Below the pieces are notes generated by a model. It worked only from the letters and a program-made list of their open reading frames with translations, ran no database searches and was not told the origin of the DNA. From positions 1-56,124 of the IMG/VR virus record IMGVR_UViG_3300009168_000013: a stretch of DNA of 56,124 nt; one strand, written 5' to 3'. Source of the DNA: a virus. This document shows positions 23,743-42,296 of the stretch, piece after piece (the stretch's first letter is position 1; each line of letters starts with the position of its first letter). The translations under genes were made by a program, and so were the position numbers.

Positions 23743-24003
23743 GTGGACCTGATCGTGCTCTGCTCCTGGTGCTCCGCCCCGGCGACCCGGGTGGAGGGCT
23801 CTGCGGCTCTCTGCGGGCCGTCGTGCCCCGCCCGGCCACTCCCGCCGCCCCCGGTCGACCTGGCTGCCGTGGCGGGCCTCCTGGGCCGCTCTCCGGCGCC
23901 CTGCACCTCCTGCGGGGCCGTCCACTTCCTCCCGCCCCGGCAGACGACGGGCCGCCGCTGCCTGCTCACCCCCGGCTGCGACGGCTGGCACCGTGTCCGC
24001 TGA
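23743..24003 (+). CDS. Zinc-ribbon-like protein, 86 aa
   Basis: GTG with GGAGG at 23733-23737. Has CSWCSAPA, ALCGPSCPA, PCTSCGAVHF and RRCLLTPGCDGWH, that is, four paired Cys clusters suited to one or two zinc-binding sites. Its end overlaps the PLP enzyme start, so they are co-translated. Function unknown; possibly nucleic acid or partner binding. Confidence 0.65.
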   Translation: MDLIVLCSWCSAPATRVEGSAALCGPSCPARPLPPPPVDLAAVAGLLGRSPAPCTSCGAVHFLPPRQTTGRRCLLTPGCDGWHRVR

Positions 24004-25012
24004 GCGCCTCGCCGGGACGCTGACCGGCTGGGAGGCCCTCGCCCGGGCCGTCACCCCGGTCCACGTCCTCGGCGGCCACCCCGTCAAGCGTGACGACCTG
24101 TTCGCCCCGCTCGGCGTCGGCTCGATCAACGGCTCGAAGTTGCGCCAGTTGCTCTACCTCGTCGGCCATGCTGCGCGCAACGGGGCGGACGGGATCGTGA
24201 CGGCGGCCTCGGTCCTCTCGCCGCAGGTCCCGATGACCGCTGCTGTCGCCGCCCACTTCGGCCTCCCCTGCCACATCATCCTCGGCGGGACGGTGCTGGA
24301 GCGGGCTCGCCGCAACCCGGGAGTCGCCCTGGCGGAGTCGTTCGGCGCCACCTTCGGCTTCACCTCGGTCGGCTACAACCCGGCGCTCCAGGCGGCCTGC
24401 CGACGGGCTCTCGACGAGCGCCCGGGCTGGTCGAGGGTCCCTTACGCGATCAGCCTGCCCGAGCGGGGCGACATCGGCGACATCGAGGCACTCGGCGACA
24501 TCGGCGACTTCCACCGGCTAGGCGCGCAACAGGTGGCGAACCTGGGCGACGTCCGCACGCTCTACGTCCCCTTCGGCTCCGGCAACTCTGCGGCCTCGAT
24601 CCTCTACGGCCTCGCCCTCGCCCCCGAGACGGCCGTGGAGAAGGTCGTCCTGGTCGGTGTGGGTCCGTCTCGCCTCGACTGGCTGGCACGGCGCCTGGGG
24701 ACGCTGAGCGCCCTCTCCGGGGCCGACGTGGAGGGCTGGCTCGCCCGGGTCGAGCATCACGACCTGCACGGCCTCGGCCTCGTCGCCTACCACGACCGCC
24801 GGGTCGCCTCCCTGGGCGGCCTGCGCCTGCACCCGACCTACGAGGGCAAGGTGCTCTGGTGGCTCCGCAAGCACGCCGACCCGGCCTCGCCGTGGCACCG
24901 TGACCCCCGGGGCTCCGGCCTCTGGGTCGTCGGCTCGGAGCCTGTTGCGCCCCGCCAGCCCGCCGTGCGAAAGTCGACGGGCCGCCCCCGCAGGGACGGC
25001 CCAACCGACTGA
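23993..25012 (+). CDS. PLP-dependent enzyme, ACC deaminase / D-cysteine desulfhydrase-like, 339 aa
   Basis: GTG overlaps the previous stop. The fold is the tryptophan-synthase-beta (type II PLP) kind. VKRDDLF (31-37) and SINGSKLRQL (45-54) carry the predicted Schiff-base Lys49; SVLSPQ and YNPALQ stand where the substrate loop of the family lies, and FGSGNSAAS (194-202) fits the phosphate-binding Gly/Ser loop. Such enzymes deaminate or exchange small amino acids. In a phage, roles in modifying a base-linked amino acid or in making a building block for one are possible, but its own locus lies 10 kb from the dioxygenase operon. Substrate unknown. Confidence 0.75.
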   Translation: MSAERLAGTLTGWEALARAVTPVHVLGGHPVKRDDLFAPLGVGSINGSKLRQLLYLVGHAARNGADGIVTAASVLSPQVPMTAAVAAHFGLPCHIILGGTVLERARRNPGVALAESFGATFGFTSVGYNPALQAACRRALDERPGWSRVPYAISLPERGDIGDIEALGDIGDFHRLGAQQVANLGDVRTLYVPFGSGNSAASILYGLALAPETAVEKVVLVGVGPSRLDWLARRLGTLSALSGADVEGWLARVEHHDLHGLGLVAYHDRRVASLGGLRLHPTYEGKVLWWLRKHADPASPWHRDPRGSGLWVVGSEPVAPRQPAVRKSTGRPRRDGPTD

Positions 25013-31025: not shown

Positions 31026-31156
31026 CCGGCATCGTCCCCGACGAAGGGACCTGCGACGGCTGCGGCAAGTGGCTCTCCAGCGACGACGGCTACGTCGTTA
31101 TCGAGGACGGTGTGCGCTACCGCTTCTGCGACGAATGCCCGGAGGACGACGCATGA
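31022..31156 (+). CDS. Mini zinc-binding protein, 44 aa
   Basis: ATG overlaps the previous stop; its own stop overlaps the methyltransferase start. Has TCDGCGKWL and FCDECPEDDA, two CxxC pairs ~22 residues apart, enough for one zinc site, with a beta hairpin between (GYVVIEDGVRYRF). Similar tiny ribbons appear often in actinophages. Confidence 0.6.
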   Translation: MTGIVPDEGTCDGCGKWLSSDDGYVVIEDGVRYRFCDECPEDDA

Positions 31157-32124
31157 GGCCCCTGTTCCCCTACTTCGGCTCCAAGGGACGTGCCGCTGCC
31201 CTCGTCTGGGAAGCCCTGGGCGACCCCGACCTGTACCTGGAGCCCTTCGCCGGGTCGCTCGCCGTGCTCCTCGCCCGGCCCTCCGTCCCCCGGGTGGAGG
31301 TCGCCGTCGACACCGACGGGCTCATCGTCAACTTCTACCGCACGCTCCGCTCCGACCCGGGTGCCCTCCTCGACGCCGTGCCGCTCCCGGTCGCCGAGGT
31401 CGACGTCTGGGCCGCGCAAGTGAGGCTGATCGAGCGGGCCGAGGGCCTCACCGAGCACCTGCGGACGTCGCCCTACTACTTCAACGCACCGCTGGCGGGC
31501 CTCTGGTGGTACGGCGTCTCCTCGTGGCTGGGCTCGGGCTTCCCTGGTCGGCGCCCGGCCCGGCAGCGTCCCCACATCGACCGCTCTCTCAAAGGACTCC
31601 ACGCCCGGGGCATGCACGACGACCGGGTGCTCTCCGTCGCCGCCCGCCTCGCCAACGTCGTGCTCCTCGCCGACGACTGGCAGGAGGGCTGGCTGCGCGT
31701 GTTCGGCGGGGCTCGCAACCCTGACTCGGTCATCGACCGCTGGGCCAAGCACGATCCTCCGGGCTCGGTCGGCGTGTTCCTCGACCCGCCCTACGCCCGG
31801 GTCACGGCGGGCTCGGCCCGCTCCGGCGGCCTGTACCGCCGGGAGTGGGACGCCGACATGACGGCCCGGCTGCGCGCATGGTGCGTCGACCACACCGAGA
31901 TGCCGCACGTCTCGGTCGTGCTCGCCGGGTACGACGACGAGTACGAACTGCCCGGGTGGAACGGCGTGGAGTGGCACGCCCCCAACGGCTACGCCCAGGA
32001 GGGCAACGCCCGTCGCCACCGTGAGGTGCTCCTGATGAACCCGGCGGCCTGGCGCCGCTTCGAGGGCACCCACCTCGCCCCCGGCGTCCACCCCAACCAG
32101 ATGCACCTGGAGCCGCTGTCGTGA
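31153..32124 (+). CDS. dam: D12-class DNA adenine methyltransferase, 323 aa
   Basis: ATG overlaps the small gene upstream. RPLFPYFGSKGRAA (2-15) is motif X/I of the D12 (Dam-type) family, DLYLEPFAGSLAVLL holds the AdoMet-binding loop, and VFLDPPYA (DPPY at 211-214) is the catalytic motif. N6-adenine methylation is expected, protecting phage DNA from host nucleases or marking it. It is not a C5-cytosine enzyme: no PC/ENV pair is seen. The C-terminus (YEL PGWNGVEWHAPNG) is near the target-recognition region. Partner for the TET-like dioxygenase by itself is therefore unlikely. Confidence 0.85.
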   Translation: MRPLFPYFGSKGRAAALVWEALGDPDLYLEPFAGSLAVLLARPSVPRVEVAVDTDGLIVNFYRTLRSDPGALLDAVPLPVAEVDVWAAQVRLIERAEGLTEHLRTSPYYFNAPLAGLWWYGVSSWLGSGFPGRRPARQRPHIDRSLKGLHARGMHDDRVLSVAARLANVVLLADDWQEGWLRVFGGARNPDSVIDRWAKHDPPGSVGVFLDPPYARVTAGSARSGGLYRREWDADMTARLRAWCVDHTEMPHVSVVLAGYDDEYELPGWNGVEWHAPNGYAQEGNARRHREVLLMNPAAWRRFEGTHLAPGVHPNQMHLEPLS

Positions 32125-34056: not shown

Positions 34057-34076
34057 GCTCAGCGGCTATGCTGAGC
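34057..34076 (+). promoter_or_regulatory. Operator-like inverted repeat around the -10 box TATGCT
   Basis: GCTCAG (34057-34062) and CTGAGC (34071-34076) form a perfect 6-bp repeat around CGGCTATG. TATGCT at 34067-34072 is the -10, 6 nt before the ATG at 34079. A regulator bound here would cover the box, and the first gene encodes an HTH protein. Confidence 0.5.
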
Positions 34077-34078
34077 CC

Positions 34079-34375
34079 ATGCCTACCGCAACCCTCTCCA
34101 CGCCCACCCGGCGGCGCAACCCTCGTGGTCAGCCGCTCACGCCCGAGGCCCGCTCCCTCCTCGTCGACCTGACCCAGACGCAGCACCGCATCAACGAAGG
34201 TGCGCGCATGGTCGCCGAAGGTACGGAGGCCCGGCGCCGCCTGCTCTGGGACCTCTACCACGAGCGGGGCATCAGCCAGACCGACCTCGCCGAGTGGCTC
34301 TCCGCCGCCGGGGAGCCCATCGGCCCCGACCTCGTGCAGAAGGCGCTCCGGGCCGTGCGGGAGACGGGCCTGTAG
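34079..34375 (+). CDS. Helix-turn-helix regulator, first gene of the hypermodification operon, 98 aa
   Basis: Leaderless ATG. RRRLLWDLYHERGISQTDLAEW continues with LSAAGEPIGPDLVQKALR, a standard two-helix unit where GISQ and IGPD lead into the turn and the recognition helix. Similar to the short HTH proteins before phage operons. A preceding basic segment (TRRRNPRG) could also bind DNA. With the inverted repeat at its own -10, negative autoregulation of the operon is the likely role. Confidence 0.7.
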   Translation: MPTATLSTPTRRRNPRGQPLTPEARSLLVDLTQTQHRINEGARMVAEGTEARRRLLWDLYHERGISQTDLAEWLSAAGEPIGPDLVQKALRAVRETGL

Positions 34376-34379
34376 CCCG

Positions 34380-35000
34380 ATGGCTGTCCTGGCTCAGACC
34401 TACGAGCCTGCCTGCCCCATCGACTCCCTCTCCGAGCACCCCGCCAACCCCCGGGTCGGCGACATGGAGGCCCTCGGCGAGTCGATCCGGGTCAACGGCT
34501 TCTACGGGGCCGTCGTGGCGCAGGTGTCCACCCGCCACGTCCTGGCGGGCAACCACCGCCTCCGCAAGGACGCCGAGCAGGGCGCCACCACGATCCCGGT
34601 GCTCTGGGTCGACGTGGACGACGACCTGGCCCTCCGCATCCTCGTCGGCGACAACCGCTTCCCGGCCCTCGCCGGGTACGACGACTCCGGGCTGGCCCGG
34701 CTCCTCGGCTCGCTCCTCGGCGTGCCCGCCGGGCTCCTCGGCACCGGCTACTCGGCCGACGCTGCGGACCTCCTGCTGCGCCTCCTGGCCGAGGGGGACT
34801 CGCATGGTGCTGTCGCCCCGGGGCTGACGCCGGGGGAGCGAGAGGAAGCCTGGGCGGCCTCTGCGATGCAATCCCTGGTGCTGCCCTACCCGCCCGCCGA
34901 CCACGACGCCGTCGCCTCCGCCATCGACGCCGCCGGGCACCCTGCGGAATCACGCTCGGACACGGTGCTGCGCCTCCTCCGGGCGGCCACCAGTGCGTGA
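34380..35000 (+). CDS. ParB-like nuclease-domain protein 1, 206 aa
   Basis: ATG five bases after the HTH gene. ParB/Srx-type fold: CPIDSLSEHPANPRVGDMEA, LGESIRVNGFYGAVVAQ, HVLAGNHRLRKDAEQG (GxHRxxA-like box) and DLALRILVGDNRFPALAGYD. The C-terminal half has LRLLAEGDSHG and SLVLPYPPADHDAVASAIDA. ParB-like domains accompany TET/JBP genes in predicted phage DNA-modification clusters, where they may bring the enzymes to DNA or act as CTP/ATP switches. Overlaps the dioxygenase gene by eight bases. Paralogue of the gene at 35841. Confidence 0.8.
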   Translation: MAVLAQTYEPACPIDSLSEHPANPRVGDMEALGESIRVNGFYGAVVAQVSTRHVLAGNHRLRKDAEQGATTIPVLWVDVDDDLALRILVGDNRFPALAGYDDSGLARLLGSLLGVPAGLLGTGYSADAADLLLRLLAEGDSHGAVAPGLTPGEREEAWAASAMQSLVLPYPPADHDAVASAIDAAGHPAESRSDTVLRLLRAATSA

Positions 35001-35844
35001 GGTCGCCCTGTACCGCTGCCCGGTCAACGTCGCCCCTCGCTCGCAGGCCGACCCCCCGGGGCCAGGTGCTGTCGTGCTCGACGGCGACGTGCTCCTGCGG
35101 GACGCCGACTCCGGGGCCGCCGTCGCCCTCCAGGCTGTCGCCGCCCGAGGCCCCGCCACCATCATCGCCTCGCTGCTGCGCCACCTGGCCTGGGCGGAGC
35201 GCGCACCCCGGTACGGGGCCGTGGCGACGGGGGAGTCTCGCCTCTCGGGCATCGCCGTCTCCAACAGCGTGTTCGGCGCTCTCCCGCCGGTGCCGCTGCG
35301 CCGCCGGTACGGCTGCTGCCGGGCCGCCCTCGACACCGACCGGCCCGACCTCGTCTCCCACCTCTCCCATGTCGCCGTGCTCTCCGCCGCCCTCGCCGCC
35401 GACGTCCTCCCCGACGAGTTCGCCGCCTGGGCCGCCGCCGTGGAGGCCCGGGTCCCTGCGGCCTGGCGCATGGCCGACACCCTCTGGACCTCCGGCGTCA
35501 TCAACAACAACTCTGCCCACCCCTACCACCGGGACGCCTCCAACGTCCGGGGCTCCTGGTCGGCGATGCTCTCGATGAAGGCGCACCTGGAGGGCGGCTG
35601 GCTCCACCTGCCCGACTACGGCTGCTACCTCGCCGTGCCCGACGGCGCCCTCACCCTGTTCGACGGCGGGCTCCTCCTCCACGGCGTCACGCCCTTCCGG
35701 CTCACCAAGCCCTCCGGGTACCGCTTCACCGTCGTCTACTACGCCCGGGCCGGGCTCTCCGCCTGCGCGCAAGACCCGGCGGAGGAGCCTGCGAGAGCCG
35801 CGAGAGTCGCCTACGAGGCCGCACGAGCCCGGGTCCAGCCATGA
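34993..35844 (+). CDS. TET/JBP-type 2-oxoglutarate, Fe(II) DNA dioxygenase, 283 aa
   Basis: GTG overlaps the first ParB-like gene. The conserved double-stranded beta-helix core lies at ~165-252. HPYHRDASN (176-184) gives the iron ligands His179 and Asp181, and Asn184 is typical of the TET/JBP group; HGVTPF holds the distal ligand His230; GYRFTVVYY has Arg244 for 2-oxoglutarate. GGWLHLPDYG (201-210) is the expected strand. The N-terminal ~100 residues include FGALPPVPLRRR, also seen in this group. These enzymes hydroxylate 5-methylcytosine (TET) or thymine (JBP) in DNA. Which base is used here is open, because no C5 methyltransferase is seen. Confidence 0.85.
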   Translation: MREVALYRCPVNVAPRSQADPPGPGAVVLDGDVLLRDADSGAAVALQAVAARGPATIIASLLRHLAWAERAPRYGAVATGESRLSGIAVSNSVFGALPPVPLRRRYGCCRAALDTDRPDLVSHLSHVAVLSAALAADVLPDEFAAWAAAVEARVPAAWRMADTLWTSGVINNNSAHPYHRDASNVRGSWSAMLSMKAHLEGGWLHLPDYGCYLAVPDGALTLFDGGLLLHGVTPFRLTKPSGYRFTVVYYARAGLSACAQDPAEEPARAARVAYEAARARVQP

Positions 35845-36419
35845 TCGAGCGCCAGACGTTCCACGCCGACTACCCGCTCGCAGACCTCGTGCCCCACCCG
35901 GACAACCCTCGCCGGGGCGACGTGCTCTCCCTGGCGGAGGCCATCGAGGCCCTCGGCTTCTACGGGGCGATCTACCTCCACGGCGACTCCTCCGTCGTGC
36001 TGGCGGGCTGGCACCGGGTCCTGGCCCTCCACGCCACCGGCGTCACCGCCGCCCCGGTCATCCGCCTCTACTGCTCCGACGCCACCGCCCTCCGGGTGAT
36101 GCTGGCCGACAACCGCATCGGCGACCTCGGCCATGAGGACCCGCTGCTCCTCGGCGACGCCCTGGCCGCCCTGGCCGCCTCGCCGCTGGGCCTGGCGGGC
36201 ACCGGGTACACGGAGGACGACCTGGCCGACCTGATGGCCGCCGCCGAGGCCGCCTCGCCCTGGGGCTCCTCGGTCGCTCAGGGCGGCGAGTCACGCTCCC
36301 TGGTGCTCCTGTACGACGCCGCCGGGCTGCGCGAGGTCGTCGGCCACATCGACGCTCTCTGCTCCCGCTGGGGCCTCGACTCGGCTGCTGCTGTCGTGCG
36401 CCGCCTCGTGCTCTCGTGA
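35841..36419 (+). CDS. ParB-like nuclease-domain protein 2, 192 aa
   Basis: ATG overlaps the dioxygenase stop by four bases. Contains PLADLVPHPDNPRRGDVL, EALGFYGAIYLHGDSSVVLA, GWHRVLALHATG and ALRVMLADNRIGDLGHED, the same order as the gene at 34380. C-termini are also alike (SLVLLYDAAGLREVVGHIDA against SLVLPYPPADHDAV). The pair probably arose by duplication and may form a heterodimer clamp around the modified DNA. The box here is GWHR instead of GNHR. Confidence 0.8.
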   Translation: MIERQTFHADYPLADLVPHPDNPRRGDVLSLAEAIEALGFYGAIYLHGDSSVVLAGWHRVLALHATGVTAAPVIRLYCSDATALRVMLADNRIGDLGHEDPLLLGDALAALAASPLGLAGTGYTEDDLADLMAAAEAASPWGSSVAQGGESRSLVLLYDAAGLREVVGHIDALCSRWGLDSAAAVVRRLVLS

Positions 36420-36967
36420 GGGGAGCCCTGTACGTCATCGGCCCTCCCGGCTCCGGCAAGTCTCTCGGCCTCGTGACGGCTCTCGGCCTCGCCGGGCTCC
36501 TGCCCCAGACCTCCGCCGATCAGCCCTTCGCCATGACGCTGCACAACTCCCTCGACGGCACCCGGCCCACCTGGGTCCTGGGCCGCCCTGGTGGCCCCTT
36601 CTCCGGCACCGACGCTCTCGCCATGAACGTCGCCCCTCGTGTCAGAGAGTGGCTCCTGGGGGCCTCTCCGGCGGCCGTGGCGGCTGAGGGCGACCGCCTC
36701 GCCAACCCGGTCACCCTCGACGCCCTCTGGCACGCCTTCCCGACGGGCCGCCTCGCCGTGCTCGACCTCCCGCCCGCCCTCTCCTGGGACCGCATGGTGC
36801 GCCGGGCCGAAGCCCTGGGCCGCCCGCCGCAGAGCGAATCCTGGTGGAAGGGGAGGGTCACCAAGACCCTGAACCTGGCTGCGCGCTACGCCGACATCGC
36901 CGTCCGGGTCGACGCCACCGGCTCGCCCGACGACGTCGCCGAGGCCCTCGTGCCGCTCCTCCCGTAG
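36416..36967 (+). CDS. P-loop kinase, putative modified-base kinase, 183 aa
   Basis: GTG overlaps the ParB-like stop. Walker A is GPPGSGKS (9-16). The rest follows the phage DNA base kinase type: NSLDGTRPTWVLGR, a long insert with MNVAPRVREWL, TGRLAVLDLPPALSWDRMV, and an ADIAVRVDATGSPDDVAEAL end. Such kinases activate 5-hydroxymethyl pyrimidines in DNA with a (pyro)phosphate for the next enzyme. Direct coupling to an aGPT-PPlase-like gene is the strongest argument for this role. Confidence 0.75.
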   Translation: MRGALYVIGPPGSGKSLGLVTALGLAGLLPQTSADQPFAMTLHNSLDGTRPTWVLGRPGGPFSGTDALAMNVAPRVREWLLGASPAAVAAEGDRLANPVTLDALWHAFPTGRLAVLDLPPALSWDRMVRRAEALGRPPQSESWWKGRVTKTLNLAARYADIAVRVDATGSPDDVAEALVPLLP

Positions 36968-38070
36968 TGGACCTCTCCGGCGTCGACCTGCGCGCAACGG
37001 CCTACCGCCGGGAGACGTTCCTCCGCTCCTGGGAGTTCACCCTCACCTACGGCACCCACCCGGGCTGCGTCTACCTGGCCTGGCCCACCCTCACCCGGCT
37101 CCTCTCCTGGTCGCCGGAGGAGGCCCTCTGGTACGCCTTCATCAACGGCAACACCCAGCACCCCGCCACCTCCCTCGTGCTCTGGCACGCTGCCCCGCTG
37201 CCCCGCCACGCCGACCGCCTGGTCGACGCCTGGCGCTCCCTGTACGGCTCCCTGGCCTTCGACACCGACCGCCGGTACCACCGCAAGGCGCTCCCCGCCG
37301 CCGTGCTGTCGTACCTCGGCCTCATCGGCGGCGGAAGCCAGGAGGCCTTCTGGCGGGCTCGGGCTGGGGAGGGCTGGGCCTCGTGCTGGGCCTCGGCCCG
37401 CTCCGTCGCCACCTTCGGCCGCCTCTCGGCCTGGTCGTACCTGGAGTACGTCCGGCTCTGCGGCATCGCCCTCGACGCCGACTCGCTCATGCTCACCGAC
37501 CGTGACGGCTCCCGCTCGCACCGCAACGGCCTGGCCATCGTCGAGGGCTCCGACGACCTGGACTGGCACGCCTCCAACCTCGGCTACCGTGGCTACCAGG
37601 CGGCGGACCTGGAGCGTCTGGCGGACCTGGGGGAGGGCCTGCTGGCCGACATGCACCTGCGCGCAGCGGGGCAGCCCTGGGCCGCCGACGTCTCCCGGCT
37701 CACGCTGGAGTCGGCCCTCTGCACGTACAAGGGATGGCACCGCCCCGACCGGCGCTACCCCAACGTCTACGCCGACATGATGCACGACCGCCTGGTCGCC
37801 GCCGAGGCCGCCCATCCGACGGTCGACTTCTCCCCTCTCTGGGCCGCCCGGGCCGCCGTGCTGCCCGCCACGCTGCGGCTGGAAGATTCCCCCGGGGACC
37901 CGGGGCTGGGGCCTCTCAAGCAGAACTTCTACCGGCTCTCCGGGCGGCAGCACACCCTCGGCCTCCGCTGGCCCGATATGCTGTCTGACCTGGACGGACG
38001 CCTCGCCGACGGCTCGCTCGGGACCTTCCGCTCTCCCCGGGACATAGGCCGTTCGGCTCATCTCGCGTAG
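36967..38070 (+). CDS. Alpha-glutamyl/putrescinyl-thymine pyrophosphorylase-like protein, 367 aa
   Basis: GTG overlaps the kinase stop. Residues: LTYGTHPGCVYLAW (~26-39), FINGNTQHPATSL (58-70), LAFDTDRRYHRKALP (96-110), FGRLSAWSYLEYVR (150-163), LTDRDGSRSHRNGLA (176-190) and ESALCTYKGWHRPDRRYP (248-265). These are the blocks of the aGPT-PPlase family, which replaces a pyrophosphate on 5-hydroxymethyl-pyrimidine in DNA with an amine or amino acid. Conserved Arg/His/Asp residues appear intact. It would be the last step after dioxygenase and kinase. The amine donor is not known here; the 23993 enzyme or host metabolites are possibilities. Confidence 0.8.
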   Translation: MDLSGVDLRATAYRRETFLRSWEFTLTYGTHPGCVYLAWPTLTRLLSWSPEEALWYAFINGNTQHPATSLVLWHAAPLPRHADRLVDAWRSLYGSLAFDTDRRYHRKALPAAVLSYLGLIGGGSQEAFWRARAGEGWASCWASARSVATFGRLSAWSYLEYVRLCGIALDADSLMLTDRDGSRSHRNGLAIVEGSDDLDWHASNLGYRGYQAADLERLADLGEGLLADMHLRAAGQPWAADVSRLTLESALCTYKGWHRPDRRYPNVYADMMHDRLVAAEAAHPTVDFSPLWAARAAVLPATLRLEDSPGDPGLGPLKQNFYRLSGRQHTLGLRWPDMLSDLDGRLADGSLGTFRSPRDIGRSAHLA

Positions 38071-38121: not shown

Positions 38122-39162
38122 ATGACCGTTCAACTCACCTCCGCTCGGGCCTTCGGCGTCGAGATCGAGTGCCACTCCCGGCTGTCGTTCGACACCCTCG
38201 CCCGTACCCTCTCGGCTGCCACCGGCCTCCAGTTTGAAGTTCAGGGCTGGTCGCAGCACACCACCGCTGCCCGGGGCCACAACCGGGGCACCTGGAAGAT
38301 CGTCCCCGACGGCTCGCTGAGCCACACCACCGGCAAGGAGGTCGTCTCCCCGGTGCTGTCGGGCGACGAGGGTGCCCGCCAGGTCACCGCCGTCCTGACC
38401 GCCCTTCGGGACGCCGGGGCGACCGTCGACCGGGCCTGCGGCATGCACGTCCACCACGACGCCAACGACATCACGGTCGACGGCATGGTGCGGCTGGTCG
38501 AGGGCTTCGCCGCCCGCCAGGTCAGCCTCATGGACCGCTTCGTCTCCCCGAGCCGCCGCAACGGCCGCTGGGCCTCACGGCTCTCCGGGGCCGAGGTCCG
38601 CACGGCGACCAACGCCCTCTCCAACGGCTACGCCGCTGCCCAGCGTGGCACCTGCGGAGTGGACCGCTACCGGGCACTCAACCTCCTCGCCTACGCCTCC
38701 TACGGCACGGTGGAGTTCCGCCAGCACCAGGGGACGCTGAACGCCTCCAAGGTGCTCGCCTGGGTCGCCCTCGGCCAGGCCATCGTCGAGGCCGCCATCG
38801 ACGGGACGCTCCCGGGGATGCAGACCTCGATCGAGTTCCTCAACGAGGCTGTCGGCTCCGGGCTCATGCACGGCTCGGCCGCCCGCTCGCTCACCCGCCG
38901 GGCCGCCGCCTTCGGCTTCGACGCTCCGGCCATCACGGCTCGCTCCTCGATGAGCCGCGCAGCGCAGGGTCGCCGCACCCGGGTCGCCAACGTCTCGGAG
39001 GAGACGGATGCCGAGGCCTTCCACCTCCGCTCGGCGGGGCGCACCTGGCGTCAGGTCGCCGAGGCACTCGGGCTCGCCCGGGAGTCGTCGGCCCGCACGG
39101 CCGCCGGTCGCCACTCGGCCCGCATCGGCGCCTCGGTCGGGTACGTCCCGACCGGGGCCTGA
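38122..39162 (+). CDS. Amidoligase-family protein (COOH-NH2 ligase), 346 aa
   Basis: Leaderless ATG. FGVEIECHS (11-19), CGMHVHHDA (106-114) and VEFRQHQGTLN (197-207) are the three signature blocks of the phage amidoligase family (glutamine-synthetase-like fold): metal-binding Glu pair, H-x-H and the E-x-R...G strand. They join an amine to a carboxylate using ATP. The C-terminal ~70 residues, with LRSAGRTWRQVAEALGLAR, read as a helix-turn-helix, an added domain that may bind DNA. Family neighbourhoods with glutamine amidotransferase and cyclotransferase are known from comparative genomics; the substrate is not. Confidence 0.8.
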   Translation: MTVQLTSARAFGVEIECHSRLSFDTLARTLSAATGLQFEVQGWSQHTTAARGHNRGTWKIVPDGSLSHTTGKEVVSPVLSGDEGARQVTAVLTALRDAGATVDRACGMHVHHDANDITVDGMVRLVEGFAARQVSLMDRFVSPSRRNGRWASRLSGAEVRTATNALSNGYAAAQRGTCGVDRYRALNLLAYASYGTVEFRQHQGTLNASKVLAWVALGQAIVEAAIDGTLPGMQTSIEFLNEAVGSGLMHGSAARSLTRRAAAFGFDAPAITARSSMSRAAQGRRTRVANVSEETDAEAFHLRSAGRTWRQVAEALGLARESSARTAAGRHSARIGASVGYVPTGA

Positions 39163-39187
39163 CCCCCCAGGAATCTCCGCCGCCAGG

Positions 39188-39216
39188 TTGTGTTCCCGCC
39201 TGGCGGCGGCTAGTCT
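39188..39216 (+). promoter_or_regulatory. Long repeated promoter, copy 4 (no upstream box)
   Basis: -35 TTGTGT at 39188-39193, spacer TCCCGCCTGGCGGCGGC (17 nt), TAGTCT at 39211-39216. AATCTCCGCCGCCAGG is kept upstream, but CGTTCGGC is missing. A ~37-nt leader with AAAGGA precedes GTG 39254, so this copy is leadered. Confidence 0.75.
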
Positions 39217-39253
39217 ACCCCTACCACCACGACGTCTCGAAAGGACTCCGCCA

Positions 39254-40195
39254 GTGTGCGGCATCGCAGGTTTCTCACGCAGGGGCTCCGGCTCCACCTT
39301 CCCCGCCGGGGATCTATCCCTGGCCCTCGCCCTCGCCATCGAGGCCCGAGGCCCCCACGCCACCGGCTACGGCTGGATCGACGAGGCCTCCGCCTGGCCC
39401 TACTTCTGGAAGGAGCAGGGGCGGGCCTCCCTGGTCGCCGACCTCTGCGCCGTCACCCGGGACCCCGAGGTGCGGACGCTCATCGCTCACACCCGGTACG
39501 CCACCCAGGGCTCGCCCTCGGTCGCCGCCAACAACCACCCGGTCGTCGCTCCCGGCATCGTCCTGGTGCACAACGGCGTCGTCACCAACGACGACGCCCT
39601 GTTCCGCACCCTCGGCGTGGAGCGCATGGCGGAGGTCGACTCCGAGGTCATCGCCGCCCTGCTGTCGTACTCGGGCATGGACCCCTGGCTCGCCCTCGCC
39701 GAGTTGCGCGGACGGGCCGCTGTCGCCTGGCTCGACGCCGACTCGCCCGACACGCTGCACCTCGCCCGGGTCACCGACTCGCCCCTCCACTACGCCCACA
39801 CCAAGGGCGGAGCGTTCATCTTCGCCTCCACGGCCAAGGCCATCAACGACGCCGCCGGGCTGGCCCAGGTTCGCCTGGTGGGCCGGGTGCGCTCGGTGGA
39901 CGAGGGCACCTACCTCCGGGTCGTGCGGGGCGACATCACCGTCGTCCGCCGCATCGCCATCACCCGCACCGCCACGACCGGGCCTCGGCTCGACCAGGGC
40001 GCCGCCCCCGCCAAGAAGAAGGGCAAGAAGGGACGCCACGCCAACCAGGGCCGCCTGCTCTCCGTCGCCCCCGACCCGGCGACCTGGGACTGGACGGACG
40101 GCCGGGGCATCACCGACCGCTTCGCCCGCCCGGCGACCGCCACCCAGCCGCCGGAGCCCTACTGGGCCTGGCGCAACCGGGACGAGGGCAAGTGA
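39254..40195 (+). CDS. Class II glutamine amidotransferase, 313 aa
   Basis: GTG is followed at once by the catalytic Cys2 (VCGIAGFSRRG), as Ntn hydrolases need after removal of the initiator Met; AAGGA lies about 9 nt before. GPHATGYGWID, IAHTRYATQG, NNHPVV and VLVHNGVV are conserved GATase II blocks. The glutaminase domain covers about 1-220. No synthase domain follows; instead there is a Lys-rich segment (AAPAKKKGKKGRHANQGR) and a short end. It would release ammonia from glutamine for the amidoligase or for another transferase. Confidence 0.85.
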   Translation: MCGIAGFSRRGSGSTFPAGDLSLALALAIEARGPHATGYGWIDEASAWPYFWKEQGRASLVADLCAVTRDPEVRTLIAHTRYATQGSPSVAANNHPVVAPGIVLVHNGVVTNDDALFRTLGVERMAEVDSEVIAALLSYSGMDPWLALAELRGRAAVAWLDADSPDTLHLARVTDSPLHYAHTKGGAFIFASTAKAINDAAGLAQVRLVGRVRSVDEGTYLRVVRGDITVVRRIAITRTATTGPRLDQGAAPAKKKGKKGRHANQGRLLSVAPDPATWDWTDGRGITDRFARPATATQPPEPYWAWRNRDEGK

Positions 40196-41250: not shown

Positions 41251-41650
41251 GACGGCATCTGAGGGGCCTCTGCGGCATCCCTCGTGCGACGTCTCCCGGT
41301 GCGGCCGGGCCGCCGTGCTCCGGGTCCGCTTCCACCGGGCCTGGCGGCCGTACTGCGCCTTCCACGGCCTCGACCGTCGTGGCGCCGTCCGCTGGCCCGG
41401 GTACGACGTGGAGCCGCTGGGTCGTTCGGCCCATTCCTCAGGAATCTCGCCGGAGAGGTTGTCTGGCCGCCGCCCGGCGGCTAGTCTACCTCACATGACC
41501 ACAACCCCGACGTACCGGGTCCTCACCGAGGACATGGAAGGCGCCGTGGACGTGCTGGCCCGCAACCTCTCCGAGGCCCAGGCCGATGCGCTCCTCGCCA
41601 ACGCCCGCCGTGAATCCCACGTCGCCTTCGCCTGGAAAGAGGCCCGCTAA
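41243..41650 (+). CDS. Long in-frame form: zinc-like module reading into the 51-aa gene, 135 aa
   Basis: ATG overlaps the previous gene. HPSCDVSRCGRAAVLRVRFH and YCAFHGLDR suggest a small zinc module. No stop occurs before the second promoter or the ATG at 41495, so translation from here passes through the promoter region (RRPAASLPH) into the shorter protein. Either a 135-aa fusion is made as well, or the promoter invaded the gene end. The same arrangement recurs at 43207-43662. Confidence 0.5.
   Translation: MAETASEGPLRHPSCDVSRCGRAAVLRVRFHRAWRPYCAFHGLDRRGAVRWPGYDVEPLGRSAHSSGISPERLSGRRPAASLPHMTTTPTYRVLTEDMEGAVDVLARNLSEAQADALLANARRESHVAFAWKEAR
41249..41271 (+). repeat. 23-bp dispersed repeat, copy 3
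   Basis: GAGACGGCATCTGAGG with GGCCTCT, coding for ETASEGPL right after the start codon of the 41243 frame. Confidence 0.7.
41423..41487 (+). promoter_or_regulatory. Long repeated promoter, copy 5
   Basis: CGTTCGGC at 41423-41430, CCTCAGGAATCTCGCC, -35 TTGTCT at 41459-41464, spacer GGCCGCCGCCCGGCGGC (17 nt), TAGTCT at 41482-41487, ATG 7 nt later at 41495. Confidence 0.85.
41495..41650 (+). CDS. Small protein from leaderless start, 51 aa
   Basis: ATG 7 nt after TAGTCT; begins MTTTPTYRVLTEDMEGAVDV and continues with a helix (LARNLSEAQADALLANARRE). Similar starts (MTTTP, MTTPA) follow other copies of the promoter. First gene of the unit that also includes the cyclotransferase. Function unknown. 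Confidence 0.65.
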   Translation: MTTTPTYRVLTEDMEGAVDVLARNLSEAQADALLANARRESHVAFAWKEAR

Positions 41651-41652
41651 TC

Positions 41653-41769
41653 ATGGACATCTACGACCGCATCTGCCCCGAGTGCCTGGGCGACGTATTC
41701 GACACCTTCGGCCTCACCGGCCACGGCTGCGATTGCACGCCCGAGGTGGACGAGGAGGAGGACGCATGA
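41653..41769 (+). CDS. Mini Cys-rich protein, 38 aa
   Basis: ATG three bases after the stop of the 51-aa gene; stop overlaps the next ATG. Contains ICPECLGDVFDTFG and HGCDCTPEVDEEED, a CxxC...CxC pattern, with an acidic tail. Probably one zinc site. Role unknown. Confidence 0.55.
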   Translation: MDIYDRICPECLGDVFDTFGLTGHGCDCTPEVDEEEDA

Positions 41770-42296
41770 GCGACCTCGACCCCTTCGGCCCCGCCCTCAC
41801 CTCGCTGGAGGAGGAGGGCTGGGGCGAGTGCGCCACCTGCGGCTCGCTCACCCAGGCGGAGGGCTCCGTCTGCGCCGTCTGCCTGGCGCTGGCCTTCGCC
41901 CCCGCTCCCCCGGCCGACGACGCCGTGTTCGTCTACGGCACGCTCCGCCCGGGCTGCGGCAACGACCGCCTCTGGCAGGGCACCGGGACGACCGCGCACC
42001 TCGCCGTCGCCACCGGCATCCGCCTCCACGGCCTCGGCCGGGCCTTCCCCTACGCCGTCGAGGCCACCGAGGACGTCACCTTCGGCACGCTCCTCATCTT
42101 CCCCGAGGCCGAGCGCGCAGCCCTGCTGCAACGCTTCGACTGGCTGGAGGGCACGCCCCACCACTACGTCCGGCAGACTGTCCGGGTCGCCACCTTCGAC
42201 GGCCACCGCTCGGCCTGGGTCTACCTGGCCGCCGACGAGGCCCGGGCCACGGCCCTCCCGCCGGTGCCCGGCAACGACTGGACGAACGTCCGGTAG
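41766..42296 (+). CDS. Gamma-glutamylcyclotransferase-like protein with zinc N-terminus, 176 aa
   Basis: ATG overlaps the previous stop. CATCGSLTQAEGSVCAVC (residues ~20-37) is a zinc ribbon. The GGCT/AIG2-like domain follows: VFVYGTLRPGCGNDRLWQG (phosphate/substrate loop YGTLRxG), GRAFPYAVEATEDVTFGTLL, and LEGTPHHYVRQTVRV. A catalytic Glu is expected on the FPEAERAALLQRFDWLEG helix. Such enzymes cut gamma-glutamyl bonds. With the amidoligase and amidotransferase it completes a known co-occurring trio. Confidence 0.8.
   Translation: MSDLDPFGPALTSLEEEGWGECATCGSLTQAEGSVCAVCLALAFAPAPPADDAVFVYGTLRPGCGNDRLWQGTGTTAHLAVATGIRLHGLGRAFPYAVEATEDVTFGTLLIFPEAERAALLQRFDWLEGTPHHYVRQTVRVATFDGHRSAWVYLAADEARATALPPVPGNDWTNVR

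Follow-up and report, generated by a model that had tools for sequence, protein, structure and literature searches.

A TET/JBP dioxygenase operon and a distant PLP-enzyme gene as a probable post-replicative thymidine hypermodification pathway in an uncultured phage

Introduction

Salmonella phage ViI (Vi01), a member of the Ackermannviridae, carries 5-NeOmdU (PMC11721090), and the gene set of this family includes a PLP enzyme, kinases, aGPT-PPlases, and a dUMP hydroxymethyltransferase (PMC6336734). In ViI, the last of these enzymes makes 5-hmdU at the nucleotide level. Pseudomonas phage PaMx has a transferase of solved structure, named 5-PmdU glycinyltransferase (PUGT) by its depositors (PDB codes: 8z2m and 8z2n). 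Rhodococcus phage Tonitrus and Gordonia phage Wooper contain an operon of ParB, TET/JBP, aGPT-PPlase2, and kinase genes, described in Tonitrus as a possible thymidine hypermodification system (PMC11955845), and Mycobacterium Coopervirus-type phages (Prince, Zemanar, and Hangman) contain ParB, TET, amino acid:DNA transferase (ADDT), and kinase genes. Other phages combine TET with a glycosyltransferase; in Arthrobacter phage Bolt007, the hydroxymethyl group is presumably glycosylated, not phosphorylated and aminated, and a TAGT-like protein (below cut-off) is encoded together with a PIG-L deacetylase. The general system was predicted previously, and similar operons are already annotated in the cultured actinophages Tonitrus and Wooper.

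Here, we analyzed a 56,124-nucleotide stretch of viral DNA (IMG/VR record IMGVR_UViG_3300009168_000013; hereafter, the window), the source of which is an uncultured phage, probably an actinobacterial one. Judging from its sequence, a six-gene operon together with a PLP-enzyme gene at 23993 probably constitutes a post-replicative thymidine hypermodification pathway leading to an amine product, that is, a phage DNA disguise of a known kind assembled in a less-studied way. The genes are as follows:

34079..34375, + strand: putative small helix-turn-helix (HTH) protein of 98 aa (the ORF is open from 34037; dN/dS 0.12 vs relative)
34380..35000, + strand: ParB-like protein 1 (ParB1), candidate TET partner (phrog_723, 3e-30)
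34993..35844, + strand: TET/JBP-type Fe(II)/2-oxoglutarate dioxygenase, proposed DNA thymine hydroxylase (GTG start; PF12851, 1e-13)
35841..36419, + strand: ParB-like protein 2 (ParB2), sharing 38% identity with ParB1 across 180 aa (phrog_723, 2e-22)
36416..36967, + strand: P-loop nucleotide kinase that would phosphorylate 5-hydroxymethyl-dU in DNA (PF18751, 6e-17)
36967..38070, + strand: ADDT, formerly aGPT-PPlase2 (PF18724, 5e-14)
23993..25012, + strand: pathway gene displaced from the operon, encoding a PLP-dependent enzyme of fold type II that would trim the amino acid on the DNA (PF00291, 1e-9)

The ADDT and PLP pair is common to ViI and the window (ADDT homologue orf247, 27% identity, E = 4e-24; PLP homologue orf226, 31% identity, E = 2e-48), as is a P-loop kinase step. 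Unlike ViI, the window is proposed to use a TET enzyme on DNA, adds ParB-like partners, and yielded no PF00303 (thymidylate-synthase/hydroxymethylase family) match in a profile search of the record; the ViI kinase is HMUD2 (PF18747), whereas that of the window matches PF18751 and not PF18747. Tonitrus and Wooper differ in having a transferase of the aGPT2 branch, one ParB, and an oxidoreductase-like gene after the kinase with no PLP gene, and in the position of the cassette near the terminase. The Coopervirus-type ADDTs are 47–48% identical to that of the window, but their loci contain a single ParB, follow a different gene order, and adjoin terminase; a PLP homologue was not found in Prince. 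PUGT shares the transferase fold (probability 1.00, TM 0.54/0.66) and a family profile match, but only 11–13% identity with the window transferase in structural alignment. With Bolt007, the window shares the ParB and TET front end.

Results

The compact operon proved real. All six ORFs lie on the plus strand with the overlaps and tiny gaps given in the initial annotation: a 4 b gap between the HTH and ParB1 genes, an 8-b overlap between ParB1 and TET, an ATGA overlap between TET and ParB2, and overlaps of 4 b and 1 b at the ParB2–kinase and kinase–transferase junctions. Comparison with a related phage contig (81–96% aa identity) gave dN/dS values of 0.12–0.48 and zero stops for the six genes, which indicates purifying selection. 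In a Pfam profile search, the first protein matched no family convincingly (lowest E-value 0.12), so its HTH label reflects its appearance. A scan for promoters and terminators found nothing.

The dioxygenase falls inside the TET/JBP family, scoring 51.3 bits against a curated cut-off of 34.9 for Tet_JBP, and its family profile matched NgTet1 (PDB code: 5cg8; 3e-4) and TET2 (2e-3). The HxD...H iron triad and the 2-oxoglutarate-binding arginine were read correctly at the outset (H179, D181, H230, and R244) and are identical in 95/95 homologues. The enzyme is predicted to oxidise a 5-methylpyrimidine in DNA, and the genomic context favours T.

The ParB N-terminal domain fold was confirmed by two approaches. 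The ParB1 profile matched ParB/Spo0J structures (best 5e-11), and the ParB1 model (pLDDT 83) matched CDP-bound ParB (PDB code: 6sdk) in Foldseek at E = 3e-7, placing it with CTP-binding ParB. In Pfam, ParB_N was matched at 0.0014, below cut-off (19.1 vs 26.3). Relative to the canonical GERR and EN..R CTP motifs, the pair shows GERR changed to GNHR/GWHR and EN changed to DN. Both proteins are short (about 190–207 aa), and model confidence is low to medium in the C-terminal third; they look to be without the dimerisation domain that chromosomal ParB has at its C-terminus. Despite the matching fold, the DNA clamp role proposed initially is only a guess. As ParB lies near TET in 58/59 TET clusters, whatever the downstream chemistry, we assigned it to the oxidation step; in the thymidylate-synthase-type loci examined, ADDT had no ParB nearby. 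A tentative reading, which we rate as unlikely, is that the ParB-like proteins are dedicated TET partners, forming a nucleotide-switched, DNA-tracking subunit that would load or target the dioxygenase and direct thymine oxidation along DNA or to sites on it. If true, a DNA-base oxidase would be steered by a switch of the ParB type, which would be mechanistically new.

The kinase matched Ploopntkinase3 at 62.3 bits (cut-off 27) and contains the previously reported Walker A motif GPPGSGKS. Of the 26 TET clusters that include a transferase, 25 contained a PF18751 kinase, as did 7 of the 33 that lack one (Fisher p = 4.6e-9), and we propose that this enzyme phosphorylates 5-hmdU in DNA. The PHROG name, terminase small subunit, was rejected because the protein is a PF18751 member and Kharcho has this kinase plus a separate terminase small subunit.

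The transferase was placed in the aGPT-PPlase family from the start, and its PF18724 score (53 bits; curated cut-off 26.2) bears this out; the family now bears the name amino acid:DNA transferase. The stretch ESALCTYKGWHRPDRRYP singled out initially is a true family signature: E248, S249, C252, K255, W257, R262, R263, and Y264 do not vary across 28 aligned family members, that of the window among them. The top Foldseek matches of the model (pLDDT 91.8) were 8z2m/8z2n (E = 0.02–0.17), and a broader family profile (A2) matched 25qc (1e-13) and 8z2m (4e-9); the single sequence and a narrow profile (A4) retrieved nothing useful from the PDB. On the Pfam, fold, and family-profile results, the name aGPT-PPlase is better replaced by amino acid:DNA transferase, with PUGT as a relative of solved structure, and the enzyme is predicted to swap the 5-PmdU phosphate for an amino acid.

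All six genes of the proposed set are present, but a seventh had been overlooked. The PLP gene lies about 10 kb upstream of the operon, not adjacent to it, and shows 46% identity (E = 8e-84) with the gene that follows ADDT in L068; in related loci, such a homologue usually lies between the transferase and the kinase. PLP homologues occurred in 14/21 ADDT records and in 0/29 TET records without ADDT, and an independent contig from this phage keeps the gene at identical spacing. In cultured phages, the distributions of ADDT and PLP homologues almost coincide (162 vs 158 records for Salmonella, 62 vs 61 for Vibrio, 44 vs 44 for Klebsiella, 29 vs 29 for Escherichia, and 19 vs 19 for Dickeya); those inspected are Ackermannviridae. 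These comparisons support membership of the PLP enzyme in the predicted pathway. Pathway genes may thus lie far from the operon, and operon-only surveys would undercount such systems.

The computational results show which families the proteins belong to, their predicted folds, which genes occur together, and that selection on the operon is purifying, and the profile, fold, and co-occurrence data support the originally suggested hydroxylation, phosphorylation, and amino-acid transfer on DNA. We infer the individual reactions, the modified base, the attached amino acid, the final product, and the purpose as follows. The TET/JBP enzyme, with its ParB-like DNA-binding partners, would convert the thymine 5-methyl group in phage DNA to 5-hydroxymethyl-dU, and the P-loop kinase would convert this to 5-phosphomethyl-dU. 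ADDT would then put an amino acid in place of the phosphate, with the ViI analogy pointing to serine; as the two ADDTs are just 27% identical, the amino acid may differ from that of ViI. The PLP enzyme would trim the appended amino acid to an amine. Its cellular fold-type II relatives are deaminases and desulfhydrases (D-cysteine desulfhydrase and ACC deaminase), so that assigning decarboxylation relies on the ViI pathway, whose PLP step we take to be a decarboxylation. The end product would perhaps be the 5-(2-aminoethoxy)methyl-dU of ViI or a close relative, presumably serving as protection against host nucleases.

Discussion

The base was examined in 40 transferase-bearing records (31 TET-positive and 9 TET-negative). 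PF00303 was found in 0/31 TET-positive and 7/9 TET-negative ADDT records (Fisher 1.9e-6, relatedness ignored); on the ADDT tree the TET-negative state accounts for 7 changes, and well-supported branches carry just 2 independent TET/PF00303 contrasts, too few for significance. The cultured Glutamicibacter phage Montesquieu encodes ADDT and PLP with an annotated thymidylate synthase/pyrimidine hydroxymethylase a few kb away, and no TET was found within the 11-kb stretch read. Some phage TETs act on 5mC, the base named in the initial annotation, and on this route 5mC would be taken by TET to 5-hmC, with phosphorylation and amination following on cytosine. N184, three residues past D181, is invariant in 95/95 homologues, and its TET2 equivalent presumably contacts 5mC; its amide can, however, face either base. 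Against cytosine, no C5-methyltransferase was found in the window, the enzyme is missing from 45/50 TET records and 28/31 TET-positive ADDT records (one of the 3/31 matches being weak), TET stands in for a thymidylate-synthase-family enzyme across ADDT phages, and the solved ADDT relative acts, by its depositors' naming, on 5-PmdU. Although 5mC could in principle be supplied by the host or by a genome part outside the record, the cytosine route is improbable, and the TET substrate is most likely thymine.

Given thymine, the pathway might stop at the amino-acid adduct, the PLP gene serving unrelated metabolism. Its distance from the operon and its cellular relatives would fit this, as would Prince, in which TET, ADDT, and kinase occur without PLP and an intact amino acid is expected; but the gene is a specific homologue of the one adjoining ADDT in most ADDT loci, is confined to ADDT records, and is retained on the independent contig, and we consider an intact adduct unlikely. 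At the other extreme, the amidoligase (38122) and GATase (39236) genes could extend the DNA-linked amino acid through amide bonds into a peptide-like base. There is a precedent in CmoY, an amide ligase from a phage whose target is a modified base (PMC12783734), and amidoligase and GATase adjoin ADDT in the window and contigs L095–L097 and are also found close to TET in Kharcho, L073, and L088. Among 62 amidoligase loci, however, TET or ADDT occurred only in the window's own phage group, no other ADDT cluster contained an amidoligase, Waltz has GGACT, amidoligase, and GATase with no TET annotated nearby, and PF12224 was present in just 2/50 TET records. On the locus survey, Waltz, and the PF12224 count, we rejected amidoligase, GATase, and GGACT as conserved pathway components; the neighbouring amidoligase/GATase is a separate module, and such extension is very unlikely. 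Slighter still is the chance that the operon is a non-functional remnant, as partial sets in related phages might suggest (Nigel and Terij without the transferase, Vincenzo without TET and ADDT), given that the six genes are open, overlapping, and constrained, with catalytic residues intact.

If thymidine hypermodification to an amine is right, these enzymes would allow thymine in already finished DNA to receive a reactive amine, with no need for a modified dNTP pool. TET/JBP and nucleotide-level hydroxymethylases would then be interchangeable suppliers of 5-hydroxymethyl-dU for one amino-acid-transfer chemistry, and phage TET oxidation of thymine becomes a testable question in cultured Mycobacterium smegmatis phages. 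Among 84,980 genomes of bacteria and archaea searched with the transferase, there was one match, an actinobacterial MAG contig bearing the same module with terminase.

A probable DNA base modification operon maintained by selection

The window is a complete IMG/VR virus record of 56,124 bases (composition C 0.41, G 0.32), in which the following genes were considered.

23993-25012: PLP-dependent fold-type II enzyme gene (PLP gene)
31153-32124: D12-class N6-adenine methyltransferase (weak match, 24 bits against a cut-off of 22)
34079-38070, + strand: six-gene operon, genes overlapping or almost touching (putative HTH, ParB-like 1, TET/JBP dioxygenase, ParB-like 2, P-loop kinase, ADDT)
38122-40195 and 41586-42296: Amidoligase_2, glutamine amidotransferase (GATase) and gamma-glutamyl cyclotransferase (GGACT), downstream of the operon

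The catalytic residues and motifs quoted in the initial annotation were found exactly as quoted in the operon proteins. Against one related phage contig (81-96% protein identity), all six genes showed dN/dS values of 0.12-0.48 and no stops, indicating that the operon is maintained by selection. Profile searches bore out the proposed TET/JBP-type oxygenase and aGPT-PPlase-like last protein: the former is TET_JBP and the latter ADDT (amino acid:DNA transferase) in Pfam, and both, like the kinase (Ploopntkinase3), exceeded their own cut-offs. The TET profile matched Naegleria Tet1 and human TET2 structures in the PDB. The ParB-like identity was given by PHROGs assignment and a profile match to ParB/Spo0J structures, with a fold match to CDP-bound ParB. 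The predicted ADDT structure (pLDDT 91.8) resembled most closely 8z2m and 8z2n (prob 1.00, TM 0.54/0.66, E 0.02-0.17), both of them structures of a Pseudomonas phage (PaMx) enzyme, 5-phosphomethyl-dU glycinyltransferase. From sequence alone, a wider-family ADDT profile matched 25qc ('Amino acid:DNA transferase domain-containing protein') at 1e-13 and 8z2m at 4e-9.

In the proposed route, thymine in DNA would be hydroxylated by TET together with ParB, the hydroxyl would be activated by the kinase, ADDT would put an amino acid in the phosphate's place, and the PLP enzyme would trim the attached amino acid. The choice of amino acid and the PLP step would follow, by analogy, the pathway of Salmonella phage ViI (Vi01), reportedly described by Lee et al. 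in 2018 and 2021/2022.

A displaced PLP gene

A PLP gene was present in 36/47 ADDT clusters, mostly right after ADDT; none was found in that position in the window. The initial annotation overlooked the gene at 23993-25012, a homologue of the PLP gene of viral locus L068 (46% over 324 aa, E 8e-84). A second, independent contig of the same phage carries it at equal distance. Whole-record searches found the gene in 14/21 ADDT records and in 0/29 TET records lacking ADDT (hypergeometric p about 1e-7), and the cultured phages with PLP homologues were almost exactly the ADDT-bearing ones. The Ackermannviridae gene set for the ViI-type route comprises a PLP enzyme, kinases, aGPT-PPlases and a dUMP hydroxymethyltransferase (PMC6336734), and about 40% of thymidines in Vi01 and CBA120 DNA are 5-(2-aminoethoxy)methyl-dU (PMC11721090). 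The PLP protein matches ViI orf226 (31%, E 2e-48), and the window thus contains homologues of both enzymes regarded here as the signature of this route.

In Mycobacterium phage Vincenzo (L234, 1-3152), ParB, PLP enzyme and kinase genes are grouped, with neither TET nor ADDT detectable in the 7.3-kb stretch; this gene set represents a decayed or different pathway.

The base probably oxidised by TET

Among 40 ADDT records, none of the 31 with TET had a thymidylate-synthase-family gene, and 7/9 TET-less records, including ViI, had one (Fisher 1.9e-6), although two of these seven (L217, L218) are near-copies and profile PF00303 cannot tell a hydroxymethylase from an ordinary thymidylate synthase. 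Montesquieu, outside this set, follows the same pattern: it carries ADDT and PLP together with a gene annotated as thymidylate synthase/pyrimidine hydroxymethylase, and TET and ParB are absent from the 11-kb stretch read. The exchange seems to have occurred repeatedly, because the TET-negative state requires 7 changes on the ADDT tree (bootstrap 6-7), with only two independent contrasts on well-supported branches. A C5-methyltransferase was absent from the window, from 28/31 TET and ADDT records and from 45/50 TET records of all classes. The mutual exclusion and the scarcity of C5-methyltransferases together make thymine the likelier TET substrate, judging from gene content. Locus L207 carries ADDT, PLP, kinase and ParB genes, and neither TET nor a thymidylate-synthase-family gene was detectable in its 93.8-kb record (G082).

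TET neighbourhoods and ParB-like partners

Viral contigs were scanned with TET and transferase alignments (80 loci each), and loci were collapsed into clusters at 85% identity with cultured phages added; cluster gene counts came from small custom-built HMMs and carry their errors. ParB lay near TET in 58/59 TET clusters. ParB goes with TET, not with the transferase, because the thymidylate-synthase-type ADDT loci (L216, L217, L220, L222, L230) had no ParB within reach. The window ParB-like proteins may act as a DNA clamp, but they have altered CTP motifs and a short, poorly modelled C-terminal part.

The tailoring sets behind ParB-TET differ, with a glycosyltransferase in 17 clusters, an FkbM-type methyltransferase in 4, or the transferase together with the kinase. 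The kinase was present in 25/26 TET clusters with the transferase versus 7/33 without (Fisher 4.6e-9). An FkbM-family gene adjoins ParB-TET at L012 (3808-4509), L044, L045, L073, L074, L077 and L088, and O-methylation is a possible third fate of the hydroxymethyl base. At L089, within a 327-kb viral record, and L092, two ParB-TET pairs lie next to an aGPT2-type transferase, an oxidoreductase-like gene and a kinase. The sole transferase match among 84,980 bacterial and archaeal genomes was actinobacterial MAG contig RGDC01000007.1 (L231); it is probably a phage contig, since its ParB-TET-ADDT-PLP-kinase-terminase module is complete, terminase included.

Neighbouring genes and relation to known systems

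Other phages that lack both TET and ADDT carry the same amidoligase, GATase and GGACT module, which was therefore rejected as a conserved part of the pathway. The independent module was also seen in Arthrobacter phage Waltz, and its amidoligase and GATase in Arthrobacter phage Kharcho. Given the D12-class match, the phage may also methylate adenine.

This kind of system is already known. Iyer reportedly predicted it by comparative analysis in 2013. It has been annotated in Tonitrus (PMC11955845) and in Wooper, and the layout of ParB, TET, transferase and kinase is annotated in these, Prince and other cultured phages. In the uncultured viral contigs fetched, TET, ADDT and a ViI-type PLP enzyme occurred together in at least 24/47 ADDT clusters, and the full combination was not seen among the cultured phages examined; TET-supplied 5-hmdU joined to ADDT and this PLP enzyme would thus be common in such contigs. 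The window is further set apart by its gene order, the two ParB genes flanking TET and the displaced PLP gene. Public records, such as NC_011044.1 (Nigel_2 and Nigel_3) and NC_028934.1 (gene 2), contain apparent misannotations, with TET labelled 'queuine tRNA-ribosyltransferase', the kinase 'terminase small subunit' and the PLP enzyme 'carboxylate deaminase' or 'nucleoside deaminase'.
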